Assembly (NCBI GenBank): GCA_035505375.1
Contig: DATJQV010000014.1
Span: 1 to 58,982, forward strand
Length of the DNA: 58,982 nucleotides
From: a bacterium
GTDB lineage: Bacteria > Hydrothermota > Tepidihabitantia > Tepidihabitantales > Tepidihabitantaceae
Reading direction: 5' to 3'
In this document: positions 6,662-58,215 of the stretch, in pieces
How the letters are laid out: each line of letters starts with the position of its first letter
Numbering within the stretch: position 1 is the stretch's first letter
Translations under genes and position numbers: made by a program
Notes under the pieces: generated by a model
Told to the model about the DNA's origin: nothing
The model's database searches: none
The model's input: the letters and a program-made list of their open reading frames with translations, nothing else

Positions 6662-7195
6662 CAGCAAGGAAGCACGCCTCCACAGCGATGCGAGGAACGC
6701 ACAGCACCTGTTGCTGTCATAACGGCTGCTCTGCCATGAGAGTCGGGCTGTTCTCCTAGCCGACACCACTGACGTAGCGTGACCAGCGCAGTCGTTAGAC
6801 AATCACGGCCGGGAAACCAGACAACGGGGCTTCGCCGCAGCCTGAAGGGCGAGCAGGGGATAGACCACGAGGTTGAGGTCGCACAGACGTAGACGTTAAC
6901 GACCTCCTGGATCTTAGTCTCTGTTGCGTAGACCTGACCGATGGCTGCCTCTTGCAGTGTGAGCGTGTCGTCACGCTGACCCGTTGGCGTCGCTTGCAGG
7001 CGCTTGAGATTGTGTCTTCCTATCCAGCGTTGGGTTCTCATCCTTGGTGGCAGTGATGTTCCTCCCACATCAACTCCGGTGGATCTGCTACCATAGTGTG
7101 CCATGGCGGAAGTTAGTTACTACTGGCTGAGAAGAAGCGGTATAAGTCACTAGAGTTTAAGCTATTATAAGGTCCTTGCCACAGCCAGCCAGGGC
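6662..7195. other. Intergenic stretch without a supportable gene
   Basis: About 530 bases between the propeller gene and the 12-bp array. The only long frame (minus strand, 6658-7104) is rich in Cys, Trp and Arg, lacks any recognisable motif and has no Shine-Dalgarno. No RNA gene, terminator hairpin or promoter was identified. Confidence 0.5.
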
Positions 7196-7488
7196 ACTGG
7201 GGGAGTCACTCCCCCAGTGACTCCCCGAGTTACTCGCCGAGTGACTTACCCAGTCACTTACCGAGTGAGTCACCCGGTGACATACCGAGTGACTTGCCGA
7301 GTGAGTCTCTAGGTTACTCGGCGAGTGACTTGCGGGGTGAGTCGGTGAGTGACATGCCCAGTCACTTGCCGAATGAGTTGCCGAGTGACTGGGTGAGTGA
7401 TTCGGCCACTGACTTACCGACTGATTCTCTGAGTGACTGGGCAGGTGACTCTCCGAGTGAATTACCGAGTTACTTGCCGAGTGCTTCT
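7196..7488. repeat. 12-bp phase-locked repeat array A1 (24 units)
   Basis: From 7201 to 7488 the sequence divides into 24 consecutive 12-mers with no insertion or deletion; consensus CCGAGTGACTTG. Units differ at many positions, but T at unit position 6 is present in all 24, A at position 8 in 23, and G at position 5 in 21. The core AGT-N-ACT is a palindrome, so the array reads similarly on both strands. It begins with a perfect 11-bp inverted repeat (ACTGGGGGAGT, centre C 7207, ACTCCCCCAGT; 7196-7218). The plus-strand frame is open (tetrapeptides like PSDL), but the invariant T is a third codon position. That favours DNA-level constraint over protein coding. Confidence 0.9.
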
Positions 7489-13257: not shown

Positions 13258-13345
13258 CCGAAGTCAGAAGTCAGAATGCAGAAGTCAGTTGGCAAAGTGG
13301 AAACGGGAAATGGCAAAGTCCGGACTTGGGATTTTCCACTTTCCC
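13258..13345. repeat. AGTCAGAA-word repeat and inverted repeat between sigma and anti-sigma genes
   Basis: GAAGTCAGAAGTCAGAATGC words, followed by GTGGAAA ... TTTTCCAC arms with inner AAAGTCC/GGACTT. It produces spurious upstream start codons (TTG 13289, ATG 13310) for the anti-sigma gene. Confidence 0.65.
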
Positions 13346-18648: not shown

Positions 18649-18716
18649 CTTTCTTGATTCTCTATCGGGTGGGACAAAAGCCAGGTGGGGGCTTGCGTCA
18701 GCGGAACTTGGATCTT

Positions 18717-19088
18717 GGCAAAGGTAGTCCCAGAGGCCGGGCCAAAGGCATCTCCAGAGTCATTACCAGAGGCCCTGTCAGAGACATTGGCAAAGGCATT
18801 GCCAGAGGCCCTGCGAAAGCCATTGGGAGAGGCTTCGCCAAGGGCTCTGCCAAAGGCATTACCAGAGGTAATACCAGAGACCGTGGGAAAGCCATTGCCA
18901 GAGACATTGCCAAAGCCATTGGGGGAGGCTTGACCAAGGACTCGACCAGAGGCAATACCAGAGGCCGTGCCAAAGGCATTGCCCAAGACTTTGCCAAAGG
19001 CCTTGGGAAAGGCACTGGTAGAGACTCTACCAAAGGCCGTACCAAAGGCTCTGCCAGAGCCTTCGGGGAAGCATCTACCCAGGGACCC
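18717..19088. repeat. 12-bp phase-locked repeat array A2 (31 units)
   Basis: Thirty-one successive 12-mers without an insertion or deletion; consensus GCCAAAGGCATT, with frequent variants ACCAGAGGCxxT. The core GCC-N3-GGC (or CC-N3-GG) is an inverted repeat, as in array A1. Four reading frames remain open across it, with tetrapeptide repeats in each (AKGI/TRGN on plus; GNAF/GNVS and PLAE/PLVR on minus). No single frame is favoured, and there is no ribosome-binding site or recognisable protein. It starts 68 bases after the terminator of the FG-GAP gene. Confidence 0.9.
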
Positions 19089-19191: not shown

Positions 19192-19479
19192 GACACAGCG
19201 CGAGATACGACGAAACCTACAATTGGTCGTACTTCAAGCCGAACAACTTGCCGAACGACAACGCGAATAACTTGCGGAACAACTGCTGGAACGACTTGAG
19301 GAACATGAAAAGGTTCAGGTTGAGGTCGAGGTCGAGATTGAGGTCGAGATACAGGTTGAGACACAGCGCGGGATTCAGCCGAAGGTACAGGTCACGACGC
19401 GGCTGAGGACACTTCGGCCCGTACTTCCTGACGTACTTCGGCGGGTACTTCGCGCGACCCAACTGCGGTCGGGACTAAG
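19192..19479. repeat. 12-bp phase-locked repeat array A4 (24 units, shifting consensus)
   Basis: Twenty-four 12-mers in strict phase, but the unit type changes along the array. It begins near GACACAGCGCGA, moves to CGAACAACTTGC-like units (19240-19300), then GGTCGAGGTCGA and GATACAGGTTGA units (19312-19360), then CGTACTTCGGCG units (19420-19455). It is separated from A2 by about 100 bases of non-repeat DNA. Minus-strand frames give LNLY/LDLN/RKLF-type tetrapeptides with no recognisable protein. Confidence 0.8.
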
Positions 19480-28551: not shown

Positions 28552-31209
28552 ATGACTTCGGCAAGGATGCGATCGATAGGGATGCTGACGGTTTGCGCGG
28601 CCGTGGCCGTGTGCATCGGAACCGCCTCAGCGGACTGGGTTACGAAAACGGTGAACGCAGGAAGTCCCTGGGCCGCGGCCGTGAACCCGGTCACCAACAA
28701 GATCTACGTTGTCAATACCGACTCCAACAATGTGACAGTGATCGATGGTGCGACCAATGGCACGGCGACGGTGACCGTCGGCTGGTACCCTGTGGCCGCG
28801 GCGGTGAACCCGGTTACCAACAAGATCTATGTCGCGAATAACGGCACCGATAACGTGACGGTGATAGACGGCGCGACGAACAGCACGATTACCGTGGCCG
28901 CGCACGCGGGGCCCATAGCCGTGGCCGTGAACCCGGCCACCAACAAGATCTACGTTGCGAACGGCGACGCCGGCAATGTGACGGTGATCAACGGCGCGAA
29001 CAATACCACCGCGACGGTCGCCACCGGCGCGAGCCCCGTGGCCGTGGCGGTGAACCCGGTGACCAACAAGATCTACGTGGCGAATGACGGGAGTGACAAC
29101 ATCACGATTATCGACGGCGCGACCAATCAGACGTCCTCGGTGACCGTGGGCACGACCCCCATCGCTCTTGCGGTGAACCCGTTCACCAACAAGATTTACG
29201 TCGCGGACTACGACGTCGGCGAAGTGACGATCGTCGACGGCGCGACCGGCGACACTGCTTCGTTGTATTCCGGCTTCACCCCCACGGCCGTGGCGGTGAA
29301 CCCGGTCACGAACATGATATACGTGGCGAATACCGAGAACGTGACGGTGATCGACGGCGCGACCAATGAGCCTGCCACGGTTAGCACTGGTACGACGCCG
29401 TTGGCCGTGGCGGTGAACCCGGTCACCAACAAGATCTACGTCGCGGACTACGATGATGATGAGCTGACGATTATCGATGGGGCGACGAACGGGACCGGCA
29501 CCGTGCCCGTGGGGGCGGGGCCGAATGCCGTTGTGGTGAATCCGGTGACCAACAAGGTGTACAGCGAGAACTATGAGGACGGGGATGTGACGGTAATTGA
29601 CGGCGCGACCAATCCCAAGGCCACGGTGCCGGTGGGCACGACGCCTTGGGCGCTGGCGGTAAATCCGGTCACCAACAAGATCTATGTGGCGAATCGTGGC
29701 GGCGACAGCGTGACGGTGATTGACGGCGCCACCAACACGACGAGTGCCGTGGCCGTGGATACGTTGCCCGTAGCCGTGGCGGTGAACCCGTTGACCAACA
29801 GGATCTACGTGACGAATTCGAGCAACAATAGTCTGACGGTGATTGACGGCGCGACCAACGACACGACCAAACTGACCGTCGGCACGTGGCCGATGGCCGT
29901 GGCGGTGAACCCGGTCACGAACAAGATATACGTCGCGAATCACAATAGCAGCAATGTGACGGTGGTCGACGGCGCGACCGACAGCATGACCACCGTGTCT
30001 GTCGGTCTGCAGCCCGATGCCGTGGCGGTGAATCCGTCAAGCAACAAGATTTACGTCGGGAGCGACGGCGGCAACAGCGTGGCGGTGATCGACGGCGTGA
30101 CCAATGGCACGACCAGCGTGGGCGTCGGCTCGGTGCCCATTGCTCTTGCGGTGAATGCGACCACCAACAAGATCTATGTGGCGAACCGCGGCAGCCGGAG
30201 CGTGTCGGTGATCGACGGCGTGACCAACGCGGTGACTCCCGTGCCTGCCGACTCGTGGCCGATGGCCGTGGCGGTAAACACGGCGACCAACAAGGTCTAC
30301 GTCGCCAACTACTACGGCAATGACGTGACGATCATCGACGGCGCGACCAATGACACGACCAGGGTGACTGCAGGCACGAATCCCAACGCAGTGGCGGTGA
30401 ACCAGATTACCAACAAGATCTATGTCGCGAACCTCACCAGTAACAACGTGACGGTTATCGACGGCGCGACCGACTCGAAGTTGACACTGGCCGCAGGTAC
30501 GAACCCCAACGCCGTAGCGGTCAATCCTGTCACCGGCAAGATCTACGTCACAAACAGAAACAGCAGCGATGCGACCGTGATTACCGAGACGCCGCTGGTT
30601 GATACGAAAGTGACGGTGGCGTTCGACACGCTGCCGGGCGACTCGGCGCAGATGGGGCACCAGCCCTTCACCGGCAATGCCGTGAACCGTTCGTCGCCCT
30701 ACCCGACCGCAATGCTGGGCGTCTGTAACCGGGTGGGCACGGCCGCGGCGAAGTGGAACCTGGCGTATATCACCGGCGGTGCCGGGACCGATTCCATCAC
30801 ATGGTCCTATGGCTGGGGCACCGATTCGCTGGTGATGGGCGAGAATTTCATCTACGCGGTGCCACTTGAAGACCAGGCCGCGACCACCAACAACCTCGGT
30901 CTCGGTACACCATTTGCTGGCAACCTTGCGGTGTACCCGGTGTACCGGACCGGATATCTGACCGGGCTGGAGCAGGCAGCGGAACCCGAGGTCCGGTACA
31001 AGCGGCTGCCGACCATTGTCCGCGACGTGCTGTCCCTACCGGAAGCCGCAAGCCGCAGGCCGCAAGCTTCAAGCTTGCTGGATATCAGTGGGCGGAAGGT
31101 GCTCGATTTGATGCCGGGGGCGAATGACGTGCGCGGTCTTGCGCCGGGCGTGTACTTTGTGCGGGAAGCACAGGCGCAGGTTGTCCGCAAGGTCCTCATC
31201 GCCCGGTAA
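28552..31209 (+). CDS. Secreted 16-repeat YVTN propeller protein with sorting domain (copy 1)
   Basis: The start ATG 28552 is set by AAGGAG and a signal peptide (GMLTVCAAVAVCIGTASA). The 885-residue product has 16 repeats of about 40 residues with the core PxAVAVNPVTNKIYVANxxSNNVTVIDGATNxTxTVxVG, a canonical YVTN/NHL-like propeller blade. An approximately 190-residue C-terminal region follows, and the last 70 residues are a sorting domain (TIVRDVLSLPEA ... LLDISGRKVLDLMPGANDVRGLAPGVYFVREAQAQVVRKVLIAR). Codons 825-832 or so, between VRDVL and LLDIS, are a CAAGCCGCAGGCCGC-type repeat. It is paralogous to the next gene, 12 bases downstream. Extracellular; ligand unknown. Confidence 0.9.
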   Translation: MTSARMRSIGMLTVCAAVAVCIGTASADWVTKTVNAGSPWAAAVNPVTNKIYVVNTDSNNVTVIDGATNGTATVTVGWYPVAAAVNPVTNKIYVANNGTDNVTVIDGATNSTITVAAHAGPIAVAVNPATNKIYVANGDAGNVTVINGANNTTATVATGASPVAVAVNPVTNKIYVANDGSDNITIIDGATNQTSSVTVGTTPIALAVNPFTNKIYVADYDVGEVTIVDGATGDTASLYSGFTPTAVAVNPVTNMIYVANTENVTVIDGATNEPATVSTGTTPLAVAVNPVTNKIYVADYDDDELTIIDGATNGTGTVPVGAGPNAVVVNPVTNKVYSENYEDGDVTVIDGATNPKATVPVGTTPWALAVNPVTNKIYVANRGGDSVTVIDGATNTTSAVAVDTLPVAVAVNPLTNRIYVTNSSNNSLTVIDGATNDTTKLTVGTWPMAVAVNPVTNKIYVANHNSSNVTVVDGATDSMTTVSVGLQPDAVAVNPSSNKIYVGSDGGNSVAVIDGVTNGTTSVGVGSVPIALAVNATTNKIYVANRGSRSVSVIDGVTNAVTPVPADSWPMAVAVNTATNKVYVANYYGNDVTIIDGATNDTTRVTAGTNPNAVAVNQITNKIYVANLTSNNVTVIDGATDSKLTLAAGTNPNAVAVNPVTGKIYVTNRNSSDATVITETPLVDTKVTVAFDTLPGDSAQMGHQPFTGNAVNRSSPYPTAMLGVCNRVGTAAAKWNLAYITGGAGTDSITWSYGWGTDSLVMGENFIYAVPLEDQAATTNNLGLGTPFAGNLAVYPVYRTGYLTGLEQAAEPEVRYKRLPTIVRDVLSLPEAASRRPQASSLLDISGRKVLDLMPGANDVRGLAPGVYFVREAQAQVVRKVLIAR

Positions 31210-31221
31210 GGGGGAACGACG

Positions 31222-33906
31222 ATGATTGCGAGAGTGCATCTTTTCGGAAAGCTCGCCGCGTGCGTGGCCGCCTGTATCGGAATCGCCGCGGCGGATTGGG
31301 TCACGACTACCGTACCCGCAGGTTCATATCCCTGGGCCGCGGCGACGAATCCGGTGACTAACAAGATCTACGTCGCGAACTACGACGACAACAGCGTGAC
31401 GGTCATCGACGGCGCCACCAACAATACTAACACTCTGTACGTCGGCACGTGGCCTTTCGCGTTCGCGGTGAACCCGGTGACAGACAAGATTTACGTCGCC
31501 AACAAGGGCAGCGGTGACGTGACGATCATCGATGGCGCGACGAGCGACACAACCACGGTGAACGTCGGCACCGGGCCGAGGGCGCTGGCGGTGAACCCTG
31601 TAACCAACAAGATCTACGTGGCGGACTACGACGTCGACAGCGTGGCGGTCATTGACGGCGCGACCGACAGTACGACCTCCGTGGCCGTGGGTTCGGGGCC
31701 GTTTGCGCTGGCGGTTAACCCGGTAACCAACAAGGTCTACGTCGCGAACTACAACGTCAGCAGCGTGACGGTCATTGACGGCGCCACCATGGATACGACT
31801 ACGGTGCCCACCGGCTCGGAACCCTACGCCGTGGCCGTGAACCCGGTTACCAACAAGATCTACGTGGCGAACCAGAGCAGTAACAACGTGACGGTGATCG
31901 ACGGTGTTACCAAAGATACCGCTTCGGTGCGCGTCGGCTCCGGCCCCACTGCCGTGGCCGTCAACCCGGCTACCAACAAGATCTATGCTACGAACTACGC
32001 CAGCGGTAATGTCACGGTGATCGACGGCGCGAGCAACGGCACCGTCACGGTGCCGATTGGCGCGAGCCCCATGGCCGTGGCGGTGAACCCGGTATCCAAC
32101 AAGATCTACGTCGCGGACCGCATCAGCAACGACGTGGCGGTCATCGACGGCGCGACCAACACCAGGGCTTTGCTGACCGTCGGCTCGGGCCCCGATGCCG
32201 TGGCCGTGAACCCGGTTACCAACAAGATCTACGTCGCGGACCGCATGAGCGCCGATGTGGCAGTGCTCGACGGCGCGACCAACTCCACTACCACAGTCGC
32301 CGTCGGCACAAGTCCCTGTGCCGTGGCGCTGAACCCGGTCACTAACAATATCTACGTCGCGGACCGCATCAGCAACGACGTGACGGTAATCGACGGCACG
32401 AGCAACACCACAATCACCGTGCCCACCGGCACCCATCCTATGGCCGTGGCGGTGAACCCGGTCACCAACCGGATCTACGTCGTTGATTACTCCAGCAACA
32501 ACATGACGGCAATCGACGGTGTGACCAGCGGTACGGCCACGGTGTCCACCGGCAAGAATCCCTGCGCCGCGGCGATGAACCCGGTCACCAATAAACTCTA
32601 CGTCGCGAACAACGGCGGCAGCAACGTCACGGTTATCGATTGCGCGACCTACGACACCGCCACGGTGACCGCAGGCACGAATCCCTGCGCCGTAGCGGTG
32701 AACCCGGCCACCAACAAAGTCTATGTCGCGAACAACGGCAGCGGCAGCGTGACGGTCATCGACAGTTCGACGTACGACACAACACTGACCGCAGGCACGA
32801 ATCCCTGCGCCGTGGCCGTGAACCCGGTCACCAACAAGATTTACGTCGCGAACGAGGGAAGCGACGACGTGACGGTCATCAACGGCGCGACCAACGACAC
32901 AACCACGGTCGCCGCCGGCACGAGCCCCTGTGCCGTGGCGGTGGACCCGTTCACCAACAAGGTCTACGTCGCGAACCAGGGCAGCAGCAGCGTGACGGTC
33001 ATCGACGGCGCGACCAACGATACGACCAGCGTTATCGCCGGTGCGAATCCCTATGCGGTGGCGGTAGACCCGCTGACCAACAAGATCTACGTGGCGAACA
33101 ATGGCACCAACAACGTGACGGTCATCGACGGTGCGACGAACACCACGACCATGCTGGCCGCAGGTACGAACCCCTGCGCGGTGGCGGTGAACCCGGTCAC
33201 CGGCGAGGTCTACGTCCCCAACGGAGGCAGCAGCAATGCAACCGTGATTACCGAGGTGCCGTTCAATTATACTATGGTGGCCGCGGCATTCGACTCGCTG
33301 CCGGACAACAGAACCCAGCTGATGCGCCCGCCGTTGACCGGCAAAGGTGTGAATCGCTCTCTGCCCTACCCGACCGCGATGCTCGGCGTCGGCAACCGCG
33401 CAGGCACAGCTCTCGGGAAATGGGGCTGGGCGACTGTCAACAGCGGCGTCGGGACCGATTCCATCACCTGGTCTTACGCCTGGGGCACCGACTCGCTCGC
33501 CATGGGCGAGAACTTCATTTGTGCCCTCCCGCTCGAAGCTCAAACCGCGACCACCAACAACCTCGGGCTCGGCACGCCGTTCGTTGGCAGCCTCATGGTC
33601 TTTCCGGTGTACCGGACGAGAAACTATACGGGCATCGAGGAAGCGACGGGGTCGAAGGTCCGAAGCACGGGGCTGCCGACCATTGTCCGAGGTGTGCTGT
33701 TCCTGCCCCAGGCTCCGGGCCGCGAGCCTCAAGCTGCAAGCCTGCTCGACATCAGCGGTCGGAAGGTGCTGGGTCTTCGTCCCGGTGCGAACGACGTTCA
33801 GGGGCTGGCACCGGGCGTGTACTTTGTGAGAGAACTCCAGGTGCAAGCTCAAAACCAGGCTGGCCGCAAACAACAAACGGTTCGCAAGGTTGTCCTGACC
33901 GAGTAA
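31222..33906 (+). CDS. Secreted 16-repeat YVTN propeller protein with sorting domain (copy 2)
   Basis: The 894-residue tandem paralogue of the preceding gene has the same plan: signal peptide (KLAACVAACIGIAAA), 16 YVTN repeats, a conserved segment ending in TDSITWSYAWGTDSLAMGENFICALPLE, and a sorting domain (TIVRGVLFLPQA ... LLDISGRKVLGLRPGANDVQGLAPGVYFVRE ... VRKVVLTE). GGGGGA precedes the ATG and the two genes are 12 bases apart, so they form one transcript. Blades are alike at both DNA and protein level, which invites recombination. The final tail VQAQNQAGRKQQT is encoded by CAAGC/CAAAC words. Confidence 0.9.
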   Translation: MIARVHLFGKLAACVAACIGIAAADWVTTTVPAGSYPWAAATNPVTNKIYVANYDDNSVTVIDGATNNTNTLYVGTWPFAFAVNPVTDKIYVANKGSGDVTIIDGATSDTTTVNVGTGPRALAVNPVTNKIYVADYDVDSVAVIDGATDSTTSVAVGSGPFALAVNPVTNKVYVANYNVSSVTVIDGATMDTTTVPTGSEPYAVAVNPVTNKIYVANQSSNNVTVIDGVTKDTASVRVGSGPTAVAVNPATNKIYATNYASGNVTVIDGASNGTVTVPIGASPMAVAVNPVSNKIYVADRISNDVAVIDGATNTRALLTVGSGPDAVAVNPVTNKIYVADRMSADVAVLDGATNSTTTVAVGTSPCAVALNPVTNNIYVADRISNDVTVIDGTSNTTITVPTGTHPMAVAVNPVTNRIYVVDYSSNNMTAIDGVTSGTATVSTGKNPCAAAMNPVTNKLYVANNGGSNVTVIDCATYDTATVTAGTNPCAVAVNPATNKVYVANNGSGSVTVIDSSTYDTTLTAGTNPCAVAVNPVTNKIYVANEGSDDVTVINGATNDTTTVAAGTSPCAVAVDPFTNKVYVANQGSSSVTVIDGATNDTTSVIAGANPYAVAVDPLTNKIYVANNGTNNVTVIDGATNTTTMLAAGTNPCAVAVNPVTGEVYVPNGGSSNATVITEVPFNYTMVAAAFDSLPDNRTQLMRPPLTGKGVNRSLPYPTAMLGVGNRAGTALGKWGWATVNSGVGTDSITWSYAWGTDSLAMGENFICALPLEAQTATTNNLGLGTPFVGSLMVFPVYRTRNYTGIEEATGSKVRSTGLPTIVRGVLFLPQAPGREPQAASLLDISGRKVLGLRPGANDVQGLAPGVYFVRELQVQAQNQAGRKQQTVRKVVLTE

Positions 33907-33944
33907 CCGGCGACTGCGGCTTGCCGTGCAGAAGTGCACGCTAT

Positions 33945-34244
33945 CAGCCGTGTTGCTCTGCGAGCAGCAGAGCGGGTAGCTCGCCCGACAGCCATACAGA
34001 CTGCTATCCGGATTAGGTGCTGAGCGACGGTCCGGTCAATCTGCGGGGCAACCCGAAGAGCAGCGATCGGCGCAACTCATCGAGTAGACCGCCGAGTACC
34101 TCAGCAGTCAGCTCGCCCGGCAGTCTGCCGAGCGGCCGTCCAAGTAACTCGCTGGGTTTCCCGCTGAGTAGCCCGCGGAGCGAATACCCCGATTGCTCTC
34201 CGGGGTGCGAGTAGAGCAGCTCACAGAATAGCCGGGGGAATGGG
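33945..34244. repeat. 12-bp phase-locked repeat array A3 (about 25 units)
   Basis: About 25 12-mers in unbroken phase, consensus TCGCCGAGYAGC, beginning 39 bases after the propeller gene stop. Unit position 12 is C in most units. Divergence between units is high. The plus-strand frame that stays open longest (LSDGPVN ... SPGCE) is stopped by TAG inside a unit at about 34212, so protein coding does not explain the conserved phase. Confidence 0.78.
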
Positions 34245-51932: not shown

Positions 51933-54287
51933 ATGGTGAGGCTAAGACTTGTCCTCTGCGTGCTCGTGCTGGGGTTCGGCACGTCCGTTGTCCGAGCCCA
52001 ATGGCTGGAGAAGACCATCTATCTACCCGACTCGTTCGGCGGGCTGTTACACCCGCAGTGCCTTGTCTATGACTCTGCCAACAACACCGTCTACGTCGGC
52101 GTCGTGTGCGGTAAATGCGTGCTCGCGATTGATGGGACCACGAACCAGAGGATTGCACGAATCCCAGCCGATTCCGATGGGATGGCTCTCTGCTACAACT
52201 CGACCAACAACAAGGTTTACTGCGCGAACGCGGGATCATACCGGACCTGGGACTCGACCGTGACCGTGATCGACGGCGCAGCCGACACTGCCATCACGAC
52301 CGTGATCGCAGGTGTCGCGCCTTGGGCCGACTGCTACAACTCGCAGAACAACAAGATCTACTGCGCGAACGCTGGCAGCAGCAACGTGACCGTGATTGAC
52401 GGCGCGACGAACGGCGTCATCGCGACTGTGATCGCAGCTAGCTCTCCTCGGGCTCTCTGCTACAACGCAACCAACAACAAGGTCTACTGTGTGAACTATG
52501 GGAGCTGGAACGTGACCGTGATTGACGGCGCGACGAACGGCGTCCTCGCCACCGTGACCGTTGGCAGCAAACCGGGTGCCCTCTGCTACAGCCCGACCAA
52601 CAACAAGGTTTACTGCGCGAACGGGGGGGACAGCACAGTGACTGTTGTAGACGGCGCGACCAACGGGATCATCGCTACCGTGACTGCAGGCTTGTATCCT
52701 TGTGCCCTCTGCCACAATCTCCAGAACAACAAGGTATACTGCACGAACTATGGCAGCGGCAACGTAGCCGTGATTGACGGCGCGACCGACAGCGTAATCG
52801 CCACCGACACGGCTGGTAGCAGTCCCCACGCTCTCTGCTACAACCCGCAGAACAACAGGATTTACTGCGCGAACTATGGCAGCGGCAACGTGACCGTGAT
52901 TGACGGCGTGACCGACAGCGTTATCGCCACCGTGGTTGCAGGTAGCGAACCTTGTGCCCTCTGCTACAACCCGCACGACAATAAGGTCTACTGCGCGAAC
53001 TATGGGAGCGGTGAAGTGACTGTGATCGACGGCGCGACCAACGGCGTCATCGCGACCGTGGCGCCGGGCTGCAACCCTCAGGCCTTCTGTTACAACGCTA
53101 CCAACAATAAGGTCTACTGCGCCAGCGATGGCACCGGGACCGTGACCATCTTAGACGGCGCGACGAACGTGCTGAGGGCCTCCTTGCTGGTGGGGCGAGA
53201 CGCAAGAGCTCTCTGCTATTCCCCGGTCGCGAACCGGACGTACTGCGCGGACTACACGGGTGACAGTGTCTTTGCTATTTCTGGGGCTGGAGACAACCTG
53301 ACTGCCTCGCTCGGGACAGGACACCACCCGGTCGCGCTCGCGTGCGATTCTGCTACCGGCAAGATCTACGCGGCGAACTACGCCGGCCAGAGCGTGACGG
53401 TCGCCGACTCCGCGTTAGGAAGTTCGCTGTCCACCATCCCGGTCGGGCGCTACCCAGTCGCTCTGTGTCCCGATGCAACCCGACACAGGATGTACTGCGC
53501 CAACATCGGGGATGCCTGCATCAGCGTCATCGACACTCGGACTGACACCGTGATGGCGACCGTTCCTGCGGGCAACCTGCCAAGCGTCTTGTGTCTGGGT
53601 ATGTCGGCCGCCAAGCTCTACAGCGCGAAGATGGACGGCACTGTCTCAGTCATGCCCTGCGATTCACTCAGAGTCATCGCGACGCTGGCTGTCGGTACGA
53701 GCCCGCGTGCACTCTGCTACAACCCGGCAAACGACGAGATATACGTCGCCAACGGCGGGGGTGGAGTAACTGTGATGGACGCTCGGGCCGACACACTCGT
53801 ACGGACGCTACGACCGGCGACTGGCTTCTCCGCAGTGTGGTGCGCTGACCGCAAGGACCGTGTCTATTGCGCTGGCGGTGATTCCGTCATGGTGGTCGAC
53901 GGCGCATCTGACAGCATAGTCAAGGTACTTGCCGTGGGGCACTTCCCGGTGTCGCTGGCGTGGAACCCGCTGCAAGGCCGCATGTACGTGGCCAACTGCA
54001 GTTCAGCCACCATCTCCGTCATTCGTGACTCGTCGTTGAGCCTGGAAGAACAGGCCGCAAACACGCCTTCCCGCAGACTCGGTCCGACACTGGTCAGAGG
54101 GACTTTGCGGATGGCGGGCACTGACGCAGCCTTGCTCATCAACGCGTCCGGTCAGAAAGTCCTGTGTCTTCGTCCCGGCACGAATGACGTCGGGTTCCTG
54201 CCTGCCGGCGTCTATTTCGTGTGTCCGATGCGGAAGCATGCCGGCTCCGGCCAACCTAATCCCACAAAGGTCGTGGTGCAGCGGTAA
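51933..54287 (+). CDS. Secreted 16-repeat cysteine-paired propeller with sorting domain (copy 1)
   Basis: The 784-residue product has a signal peptide (MVRLRLVLCVLVLGFGTSVVRA), then QWLEKTIYLPDSFGGLL and 16 propeller repeats of about 43 residues. The core is PxALCYNxxNNKVYCANYGSxNVTVIDGATNxVIATVxAG. Most blades carry two cysteines at fixed places, in ALCYN and VYCAN, exactly where the YVTN proteins at 28552 and 31222 have Ala and Val. The sorting domain reads PTLVRGTLRMAG ... LLINASGQKVLCLRPGTNDVGFLPAGVYFVCP ... TKVVVQR. It is followed 9 bases later by the companion secreted-protein gene. Together they are duplicated at 55810. Confidence 0.9.
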   Translation: MVRLRLVLCVLVLGFGTSVVRAQWLEKTIYLPDSFGGLLHPQCLVYDSANNTVYVGVVCGKCVLAIDGTTNQRIARIPADSDGMALCYNSTNNKVYCANAGSYRTWDSTVTVIDGAADTAITTVIAGVAPWADCYNSQNNKIYCANAGSSNVTVIDGATNGVIATVIAASSPRALCYNATNNKVYCVNYGSWNVTVIDGATNGVLATVTVGSKPGALCYSPTNNKVYCANGGDSTVTVVDGATNGIIATVTAGLYPCALCHNLQNNKVYCTNYGSGNVAVIDGATDSVIATDTAGSSPHALCYNPQNNRIYCANYGSGNVTVIDGVTDSVIATVVAGSEPCALCYNPHDNKVYCANYGSGEVTVIDGATNGVIATVAPGCNPQAFCYNATNNKVYCASDGTGTVTILDGATNVLRASLLVGRDARALCYSPVANRTYCADYTGDSVFAISGAGDNLTASLGTGHHPVALACDSATGKIYAANYAGQSVTVADSALGSSLSTIPVGRYPVALCPDATRHRMYCANIGDACISVIDTRTDTVMATVPAGNLPSVLCLGMSAAKLYSAKMDGTVSVMPCDSLRVIATLAVGTSPRALCYNPANDEIYVANGGGGVTVMDARADTLVRTLRPATGFSAVWCADRKDRVYCAGGDSVMVVDGASDSIVKVLAVGHFPVSLAWNPLQGRMYVANCSSATISVIRDSSLSLEEQAANTPSRRLGPTLVRGTLRMAGTDAALLINASGQKVLCLRPGTNDVGFLPAGVYFVCPMRKHAGSGQPNPTKVVVQR

Positions 54288-55809: not shown

Positions 55810-58215
55810 ATGTCACCTGACTCTGTTCGACGTTCTTTGGCTCGAACCATTTCCTCACACATCCGGGCCGTGCGACCCGTGGCCGTGCTGTTGGCTTTGT
55901 GCTGCTGCCTGTCGGCAGCTCACTCACAGTCGTTGGAGAAGACCATCTATCTGCCCGACTCGTTCGGCGGACTGACCAGCCCGCAGTGCCTTGTCTATGA
56001 CTCTGCCAACAACACAATCTACGTCGGTGGCGTGTGCGGTAAGTGCGTGGTCGCAATTGATGGGACCACGAACCAGAGAATTGCACGAATCCCGGCCGAT
56101 TCCGATGGGATGGCTCTCTGCTACGACCAGGTCAACAACAAAGTCTACTGCGCGAATTCCTCAAGCAACAACGTGACCGTGATTGACGGCGCGACTGACA
56201 GCGTCCTTACGACCGTGGCCGCAGGCCGCGGCCCTCAGGCCCTCTGCTGCAACCCGACCAATGATGAGGTTTGCTGCGCGAACTACGCGACCAACAACGT
56301 GACCGTGATTGACGGCGCGACCGACAGCGTGCTCGCCACCGTGGCCGCAGGTGGCCAGCCGCTGGCTCTCTGCTACAACATGACCAAAGACAAGGTCTAC
56401 TGCGTGAACTATGGGAGCTGGACGGTGACTGTGATCGACGGCGCAGCCGATACCGTCATCGCCACCGTGACAGTAGGTAGTTTCCCTTGTGCTCTGTGCT
56501 ACAACCCGCAGAACAACAAGGTATACTGCGCGAACGGGGGCCGGAGCGGATCCTGGGACTCTACAGTGACAGTGATTGACGGTGCAACCAACCACATCAT
56601 CGCGACCGTGGTCACAGGCAGCTATCCTTGTGCCCTCTGTTACGACTCGCAGAGCAACAGGGTCTGCTGCGCGAACTATGCTAGCTGGAACGTGACTGTG
56701 ATCGATGGCGCAGCCGACACAGTCGTCGCCACCGTGACCGCCGGCAGCAAACCTGGTGCCCTCTGCTACAACCCGCAGAACAACAGGGTATACTGCGCGA
56801 ACTATGGTAGCAGCACCGTGACGGTGATTGACGGCGCAACCAACGTGGTTATCGCTACCGACACGGTCGGTGGCTGTCCTTATGCCCTCTGTTACAACCC
56901 ACACGACAACAAGGCATACTGCGCGAACTATGGCAGCAGCACCGTGACCGTGACAGCCGGCGCGACCAACGGGGTCGTCGCTACCGTGGCGCCGGGCTGC
57001 AACCCCCAGGCCCTCTGTTACAACGCTACCAACAACAAGGTCTACTGCGCCAGCGATGGCAGCGGGACCGTGACCATCGTAGACGGCGCGACGAACGTGC
57101 TGAGGGCCTCCTTGCCGGTGGGGCGAGACGCGAGAGCTCTCTGCTATTCACCGGTCGCGAACCGGACGTACTGCGTGGACTACACGGGTGACAGTGTCTT
57201 CGCTATTTCCGGCGCTGGAGACAACCTGACGGCCTTGCTCGGAACAGGACTCCATCCGGTTGCGGTCGCGTGCGATTCGGCTACCGGCAAGGTTTACGTG
57301 GCGAACTACTCCGGCCAGAGCGTGACGGTCGCCGACTCCGCACTAAGGAGTTCGCTGGCCACCATTCCGGTCGGGCGCTACCCGGTCGCTCTGTGCCCTG
57401 ATGCCGCCCGACACAGGATGTACTGCGCCAACATCGGCGATGCCTGCATCAGCGTTATCGACACTCGGACCGACAGCGTGGCGGCGACCGTTCCCGCGGG
57501 CAACCTGCCGGGAGCCTTGTGCCTGGGTATGTCGTCGGCCAAACTCTACTGCGTGAAAATGGACGGCACTGCCGCCGTGATATCTTGCGATTCCCTCAAG
57601 GTTGTCAAGACTCTCACTGTCGGCACGAGACCGCATGCACTCTGCTACAACGCGACGGACGACAAGATCTACGTCGCCAACGCCGGGGGCGGAGTGGCTG
57701 TGATAGACGCGCGGGTAGACACAATCTTGCGGACGCTCAGACCGGCGATTGACTTCTCTGCGGTGTGGCGCGCTGACCTCAGCGACCGCGTCTATTGCGC
57801 GGGCGGTGATTCCGTAATGGTGGTCGACGGCGCGTCTGACAGCATCGTTAAGGTGCTTGCCGTGGGGCACATCCCTGTAGCGCTGGCGTGGAACCCGCTG
57901 CAAGGCCGCATGTACGTGGCCAACTGCAGTTCAGCCACGATCTCCGTCATTCGTGACTCCACGTTGAGCCTGGAAGACCAGGCTGCAAACAGGCCTTCTC
58001 GCAGACTTGGTCCCTCACTGTTCAGAGGAGCTTTGCGACTGGCGGGCACAGACGCAGCCTCGCTCATCAACACGTCCGGTCAGAAAGTCATCGGTCTTCG
58101 TCCCGGTACGAATGACGTCGGTTTCCTGCCTCCCGGCGTCTATTTCATATGTCCGATGCGGAAGTACCCCGGCCCCAGGCAACCCAATGTTACCAAGGTC
58201 GTCGTGCAGCGGTAA
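55810..58215 (+). CDS. Secreted 16-repeat cysteine-paired propeller with sorting domain (copy 2)
   Basis: ATG 55810 is set by GGAGGTG and a signal peptide (VRPVAVLLALCCCLSAAHS); the in-frame extension to 55642 crosses the promoter. The 801-residue product is colinear with the protein at 51933: SLEKTIYLPDSFGGLTSPQCLVYDSANNTIYVGGVCGKC, about 16 Cys-paired repeats, then PSLFRGALRLAG ... SLINTSGQKVIGLRPGTNDVGFLPPGVYFICP ... TKVVVQR. The last third is nearly identical between copies, while the middle blades differ in order and detail, as expected for blade recombination. Some blades have three or four cysteines (ALCCNPTNDEVCCAN). Confidence 0.9.
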   Translation: MSPDSVRRSLARTISSHIRAVRPVAVLLALCCCLSAAHSQSLEKTIYLPDSFGGLTSPQCLVYDSANNTIYVGGVCGKCVVAIDGTTNQRIARIPADSDGMALCYDQVNNKVYCANSSSNNVTVIDGATDSVLTTVAAGRGPQALCCNPTNDEVCCANYATNNVTVIDGATDSVLATVAAGGQPLALCYNMTKDKVYCVNYGSWTVTVIDGAADTVIATVTVGSFPCALCYNPQNNKVYCANGGRSGSWDSTVTVIDGATNHIIATVVTGSYPCALCYDSQSNRVCCANYASWNVTVIDGAADTVVATVTAGSKPGALCYNPQNNRVYCANYGSSTVTVIDGATNVVIATDTVGGCPYALCYNPHDNKAYCANYGSSTVTVTAGATNGVVATVAPGCNPQALCYNATNNKVYCASDGSGTVTIVDGATNVLRASLPVGRDARALCYSPVANRTYCVDYTGDSVFAISGAGDNLTALLGTGLHPVAVACDSATGKVYVANYSGQSVTVADSALRSSLATIPVGRYPVALCPDAARHRMYCANIGDACISVIDTRTDSVAATVPAGNLPGALCLGMSSAKLYCVKMDGTAAVISCDSLKVVKTLTVGTRPHALCYNATDDKIYVANAGGGVAVIDARVDTILRTLRPAIDFSAVWRADLSDRVYCAGGDSVMVVDGASDSIVKVLAVGHIPVALAWNPLQGRMYVANCSSATISVIRDSTLSLEDQAANRPSRRLGPSLFRGALRLAGTDAASLINTSGQKVIGLRPGTNDVGFLPPGVYFICPMRKYPGPRQPNVTKVVVQR

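Follow-up and report, generated by a model that had tools for sequence, protein, structure and literature searches.

Array A1, a run of 12-bp units within a stretch of 58,982 nucleotides (the window) from genome G000 (3.6 Mb, 90 contigs) of an uncultured WOR-3 bacterium, is probably a non-coding track of 24 phased sites for a chromosomal, bacterial relative of the Adnaviria major capsid protein (MCP), the Adnaviria being filamentous viruses of archaea. The first-pass annotation had considered a DNA-binding array, and this reading now gains a concrete, putative partner, as many such arrays adjoin genes for homologues of a protein that, as a dimer, occupies 12 bp of DNA. The features of the window that bear on this proposal are collected in Table 1.

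Table 1. Features of the window related to 12-bp-phased arrays and to the MCP-like gene
Feature	Position	Strand	Description
Decayed MCP-like gene	6745–7050	−	SIRV2-family coat protein-like; divergent from A1; tblastn 35%, E 1e-9
Gene-to-array spacer	7120–7200	+	contains AT-rich TATTATAA at 7164–7171
Opening palindrome	7195–7219		CACTGGGGGAGT-C-ACTCCCCCAGTG; 12-bp arms, 1-nt centre
Array A1	7201–7488	+	24 units of 12 bp in one phase; consensus CCGAGTGACTTG; core AGTNACT; non-coding, intergenic
Second array	18713–19084		about 31 units, 12-bp-phased; motif TTGCCA[AG]AGGCA; intergenic; orphan, no MCP-like gene nearby
Third array	33922–34233		about 26 units, 12-bp-phased, weaker (z = 17); intergenic; orphan

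As had been noticed in the first pass, all units of A1 are 12 bp long and the phase is unbroken; the phase statistic over 12 columns reaches z = 42, and at periods of 10, 11, 13, and 14 nothing rose above threshold anywhere in the window. Counting by column confirmed that T6 is invariant (24/24) and A8 nearly so (23/24), followed by T10 (22/24) and G5 (21/24), and the TNA core is constrained, most strongly at T6 and A8. The inverted repeat described at the opening of the array is present and its arms are one base longer than the 11 bp reported (7195–7206 and 7208–7219, around C7207). Tandem Repeats Finder, proposed as a check, recovers A1 incompletely, with a period of 12, 22.3 copies, 63% matches, and 0% indels, and also lists rows with periods of 24 and 36. 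The start of the array, GGGAGTCACTCC-CCCAGTGACTCC, is found again in homologous arrays, both elsewhere in this genome and in related genomes. In the spacer, the AT-rich element resembles a −10 box and might be a promoter element, and a similar box lies at a similar place in several homologous spacers.

A1 matches about 12 other places in G000, with 70–74% identity in the longer matches, and more weakly places in G001, G002, G004, G005, and G015. Apart from a few truncated ones, the homologous arrays consist of 19–28 units in a single phase. When 13 pairs of homologous arrays (72–96% identical) were aligned at the level of units, their lengths differed by whole units only, array ends having been set by in-phase scanning, which favors in-phase calls; in free-gap alignments of homologous flanks, 48 gaps that were not multiples of 12 occurred per 482 substitutions. 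Over the 13 pairs, 12 changes fell on T6 and 17 on A8, and the remaining columns had 38–91 changes each. In the orthologous pair L153/L154, which comes from two species and has flanks that are 72–79% alike, the phase is also kept, with changes in 1 of 22 units at T6, in 2 of 22 at A8, and in 13 of 22 at column 1. The early impression that phase is held while sequence drifts is thus borne out within and between genomes, T6 and A8 being slowest to change.

Such constraint could in principle act on an encoded protein, a repetition of the tetrapeptide P-S-D-L, which had already been judged a weak explanation and was rejected here. Frame 1 is indeed open in A1 and in many paralogous arrays of G000, but it is interrupted by stops in relatives: a TAG is common to L142, L144, and L146, stops occur in L154–L160, and every array examined from G001, G002, G004, G005, and G015 contains them. 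Substitutions are spread over the three codon positions (201/214/240) with no clear third-position excess of the kind that synonymous change in a conserved frame would give, and T6, the slowest column, is a third position. As a general explanation the repetitive protein is refuted, and for A1 itself it is extremely improbable. The earlier conclusion of a constraint on spacing stands, and the structured RNA that had been offered beside it is weak. Single-sequence folding of A1 is strong (z −11.4) and a −10-like box lies upstream, as would suit a non-coding RNA of repeated hairpins, but palindromic DNA must fold in this way as a single strand, a consensus fold computed over 12 homologous arrays reaches only −17 kcal/mol with a covariation term of −0.84 (an imperfect test, since a MAFFT alignment of repetitive sequence was used), and no Rfam family matches the array. 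It would also leave the association with a gene and the exact 12-bp period unexplained. The array is therefore probably no structured RNA, and repeated hairpins are a very improbable account of it.

Phased 12-bp arrays form a family in this genome. In 459 kb of G000 sequence 26 arrays were detected (23 in twenty arbitrary 20-kb stretches and 3 in the window), a sample estimate that extrapolates to about 200 arrays per genome, and the same sample contained no arrays at the four control periods 10, 11, 13, and 14. The arrays of G000 are intergenic and show no orientation bias (convergent 4, divergent 8, co-oriented 10), and their median size is 24 units (interquartile range 22–27, in a set that also takes in gene-adjacent arrays). 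Several motif classes exist, the largest of them a loose single-linkage group, and the period is always 12. Of 12 motif groups, about 8 have dyad symmetry at nominal significance, and two groups, AAAGCTC and L186, show no dyad. Arrays of the AAAGCTC class at L221, L225, and L232 have CC.GC..CCG arrays as partners at a distance of about 300–330 bp. The second array of the window is followed at 19238–19366 by short 12/6-bp repeats (AGGTTGAGGTCG), and similar repeats follow the array in L145. The window also holds short arrays of 7-bp repeats (at 13260, 31039, 36963, 42023, 44053, and 55411; for example GAAGTCA, AAGTCCG, and AAGCCAC), large genes with 123/126-bp repeats that correspond to units of about 41–42 amino acids (28672–30471, 31328–33216, 52259–53169, and 56138–57074), and other genes with beta-propeller domains and FlgD_ig or Por_Secre_tail C-termini.

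Arbitrary stretches of seven other genomes of the same WOR-3 order (about 567 kb) yielded 7 arrays: 2 in 100 kb of G021, 1 in 47 kb of G027, 1 in 60 kb of G008, and 3 in 100 kb of G003, with none in 180 kb of G006 and G007 together and none in 80 kb of G001 despite its 33 gene copies (see below). Outside the order, no array was found in 620 kb of unbiased outgroup stretches. These were used because a set of 95 stretches from a search with AGTNACT had been chosen for its 12-bp repeats and so was a biased control; apart from L065 of the same genus (G005 contig 8) it contained ordinary short tandem repeats, and 19 further 12-bp repeats were counted in 668 kb of these repeat-selected stretches. 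In the samples, arrays are confined to genomes that possess the gene described next.

Homology between array loci runs upstream into a small divergent gene for a protein of about 120 amino acids. The copy beside A1 is clear only over its N-terminal half (profile positions 4–61, about 6874–7047, profile E 1.1e-5), and the remainder is scrambled. The gene, here called MCP-like, has 29 tblastn matches in G000 and up to 39 copies per genome, and it is present in 28/28 genomes of this WOR-3 order and in 0/72 genomes outside it. Intact paralogues have dN/dS values of 0.03–0.18, and the family is under purifying selection. Intact copies in G000 include C34:1901–2269 and C81:101404–101772.

A profile of 18 paralogues was compared with the PDB and its leading matches were all Adnaviria MCPs: 6d5f (SFV1, 2e-4), 6wq0 (SSRV1, 2.2e-4), and 3j9x (SIRV2, 2.8e-4), each aligned over nearly the full length, and then 5w7g and 3fbz (AFV1, E 0.01). 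The Pfam family PF12193 (Sulf_coat_C) is matched by 10 of the 18 paralogues when E-values as high as 0.1 are counted, the best being 4.1e-7; the first member scored 21.3 bits (E 3e-4), below the Pfam cut-off of 25.2. A template-free AlphaFold model (pLDDT 90) predicts helices at residues 4–14, 17–55, 60–79, 84–100, and 105–116, that is, a C-terminal four-helix bundle with an N-terminal helical arm as in these MCPs; the charge of the arm is only mildly positive (−1 to +4) and uninformative. When the model was searched with Foldseek against the PDB, the top nine matches were all Adnaviria MCPs (SIRV, SSRV1, AFV1, SFV1), among them 3j9x (probability 1.00, TM 0.71), with 3f2e superposing at 1.6 Å over 77 columns, and a sharp drop led to an unrelated tenth match (probability 0.16). 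The BFVD agrees for its top two matches. As no Foldseek E-value was below 1e-3 and the profile E-values are individually modest, the case for homology rests on the agreement of profile and fold, and in both respects the MCP-like family is homologous to the SIRV2-family MCP of the Adnaviria. The second gene of a tandem pair also gave a model like the MCPs of AFV1 and SIRV2 (pLDDT 81), from an alignment that included first-gene members.

In SIRV2, AFV1, SFV1, and PFV2, each MCP dimer occupies 12 bp of DNA in the A form, and in SIRV2 the homodimer has two-fold symmetry about an axis that coincides with the two-fold axis of the DNA (PMC5517147, PMC6105669, PMC7189273). In published papers, the Adnaviria and their MCPs are assigned to archaea alone. 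The present gene belongs to bacteria, G005 of the same genus being a candidate division WOR-3 bacterium and the gene occurring throughout the order. Proviruses were considered and rejected, as no viral neighborhood was noticed around the loci of G021; their neighbors, read from translations, are rpsP/trmD, HU/mtnA, and purM/guaA/glyA-like genes. Two single-protein queries gave no matches in IMG/VR, and no phage records were matched.

The association between gene and array was evaluated in G000, where an array lies at most 600 bp upstream of 12 of 21 gene copies and downstream of none; 5.6% would be expected per copy (binomial p 1.8e-10). In G021, which belongs to another family and has 42–45% G+C, all three tandem pairs of MCP-like genes abut a 12-bp array, each with a different motif and each located 3' of the gene pair. 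Tandem pairs were also found in G019, G003, and G000. At L216 (G018) a 12-bp periodicity (z 13.9) lies downstream of the gene and not upstream, as in G021, and at L266 and L267 (G000 contigs C15 and C42) an array directly precedes two or three diverged MCP-like genes. Arrays adjoining genes of the L161 protein clade share a TGA-type core (G000, G001, and G004), and beside the L164 clade the motif is GCGA[CT]T (G000 and G003), with L196 of G002 as an exception; that motif tracks protein clade could reflect common descent of the whole module. Adjacency to a gene was rejected as the sole rule for arrays because most arrays are orphans. No array was detected beside copies of the YPFYL subfamily, nor beside the best copies of G006, G009, G017, G020, and G025.

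With these data, ordinary minisatellites that have decayed and lie beside genes by chance or hitch-hiking become a still less credible source of the arrays, indeed an extremely improbable one. Tandem 12-bp repeats do exist in unrelated genomes, and minisatellites and short tandemly repeated sequences resemble the arrays in their tandem short units. However, slippage keeps the units of minisatellites similar and lets length and phase vary, whereas here the units have diverged with phase and core kept, as in the conserved core columns of L153/L154, and size and the single period are the same across motif classes and genera; the empty outgroup sample and the adjacency value speak against minisatellites as well.

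Placement relative to the gene also bears on autoregulation, in which the arrays would be operators through which a small DNA-binding protein controls its own divergent promoter, orphans being remnants of lost copies. The 5' position in G000 (12 upstream, 0 downstream) and the −10-like boxes of the spacers would fit, but about 24 units over 290 bp far exceed what an operator needs, most arrays are distant from any copy and lack orientation bias, and the G021 arrays lie on the 3' side. Autoregulation as the explanation is therefore quite unlikely. Another possibility is that gene and array form a selfish mobile module, with orphans as non-autonomous copies moved in trans and the units as recognition sequence. 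Near-identical modules do occur at several places (L141/L143, 91% over 919 bp), and at L141, L144, and L151 the MCP-like genes upstream of the arrays carry the same internal replacement after GVST, and modules that share this damage to the gene have multiplied; the intergenic placement also agrees with dispersal. On the other side, neither a transposase or integrase nor terminal repeats or target duplications were noticed, several genera have subfamilies in common, and dN/dS is low. An orthologue of the flanking gene in the window, sought for an empty-site comparison, gave only matches of 26–44%. Selfish dispersal is rather unlikely to be the explanation by itself, and it is compatible with the preferred reading of the arrays as tracks for MCP-like proteins.

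For this preferred reading we infer that MCP-like dimers would occupy neighboring units, each 12-bp and often dyad-symmetric unit taking one two-fold dimer, and that about 24 dimers would bend or wrap about 290 bp into a short nucleoprotein filament, in which the DNA would probably be A-form as in virions. Different paralogues would favor different motifs, and because the gene copy of the window is decayed, A1 might be served in trans by a paralogue, for example the C34, C24, or C81 copy of G000. The tracks may serve to compact or insulate the chromosome locally, to let the gene regulate itself, or to package host DNA; compaction, autoregulation, selfish dispersal, and packaging are not alternatives in every case and several may hold together. 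Against the proposal stand the many arrays without an adjoining gene, the several gene copies without a detected array, and the two motif groups without a dyad, and no sequence specificity is known for viral MCPs.

Compared with the nucleocapsids of SIRV2, SSRV1, AFV1, SFV1, and PFV2, the WOR-3 system is alike in its homologous alpha-helical MCP with an N-terminal arm, in the value of 12 bp, which is the footprint per dimer in the viruses and the period of the arrays, and in the use of either a single MCP or a paralogous pair, the latter corresponding to the tandem gene pairs of G021 and G019. It is unlike them in that its genes are chromosomal, in up to 39 copies, in a bacterial host and among housekeeping neighbors, with no viral genes noticed at the inspected loci, and in that its sites are sequence-conserved 12-bp arrays, a kind of site not known in Adnaviria. 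Iteron-type plasmid partition sites (tubC/TubR, parC/ParR) likewise consist of short repeats in phase, to which small dimers bind cooperatively, but they have about 7–10 units instead of about 24, the protein fold differs, and the WOR-3 arrays are dispersed over the chromosome in about 200 copies with no partition NTPase noticed adjacent. REP/BIME and other dispersed intergenic repeats are likewise many, intergenic, and palindromic, whereas the WOR-3 arrays are long and phased, have a protein partner with a viral coat fold, and no RAYT-type transposase was noticed. A literature search, which fell short of most subscription journals, found nothing on WOR-3 together with an Adnaviria capsid or such repeats. 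As a protein, the MCP-like product falls within a known fold family, and the combination of chromosomal protein and phased tracks matches no known kind that we identified.

A tentative and rather doubtful extension is that throughout this WOR-3 order coat-like proteins nucleate on the approximately 200 12-bp tracks and coat chromosomal DNA in A-form filaments, giving protection of the nucleoid or a rod particle resembling a gene-transfer agent. If true, the Adnaviria capsid lineage would have its first bacterial branch here, and also its first sequence-specific use. A bacterial chromosomal MCP family beside tracks with the period of its footprint would greatly surprise specialists, and it bears on whether the capsid arose from a cellular DNA-wrapping protein or is found here as a domesticated coat. 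The system suggests a possible cellular use for A-form wrapping, with a sequence-encoded substrate that is testable in vitro, and it hints that a chromosomal counterpart of the DNA-wrapping system of archaeal filamentous viruses is maintained in bacteria.
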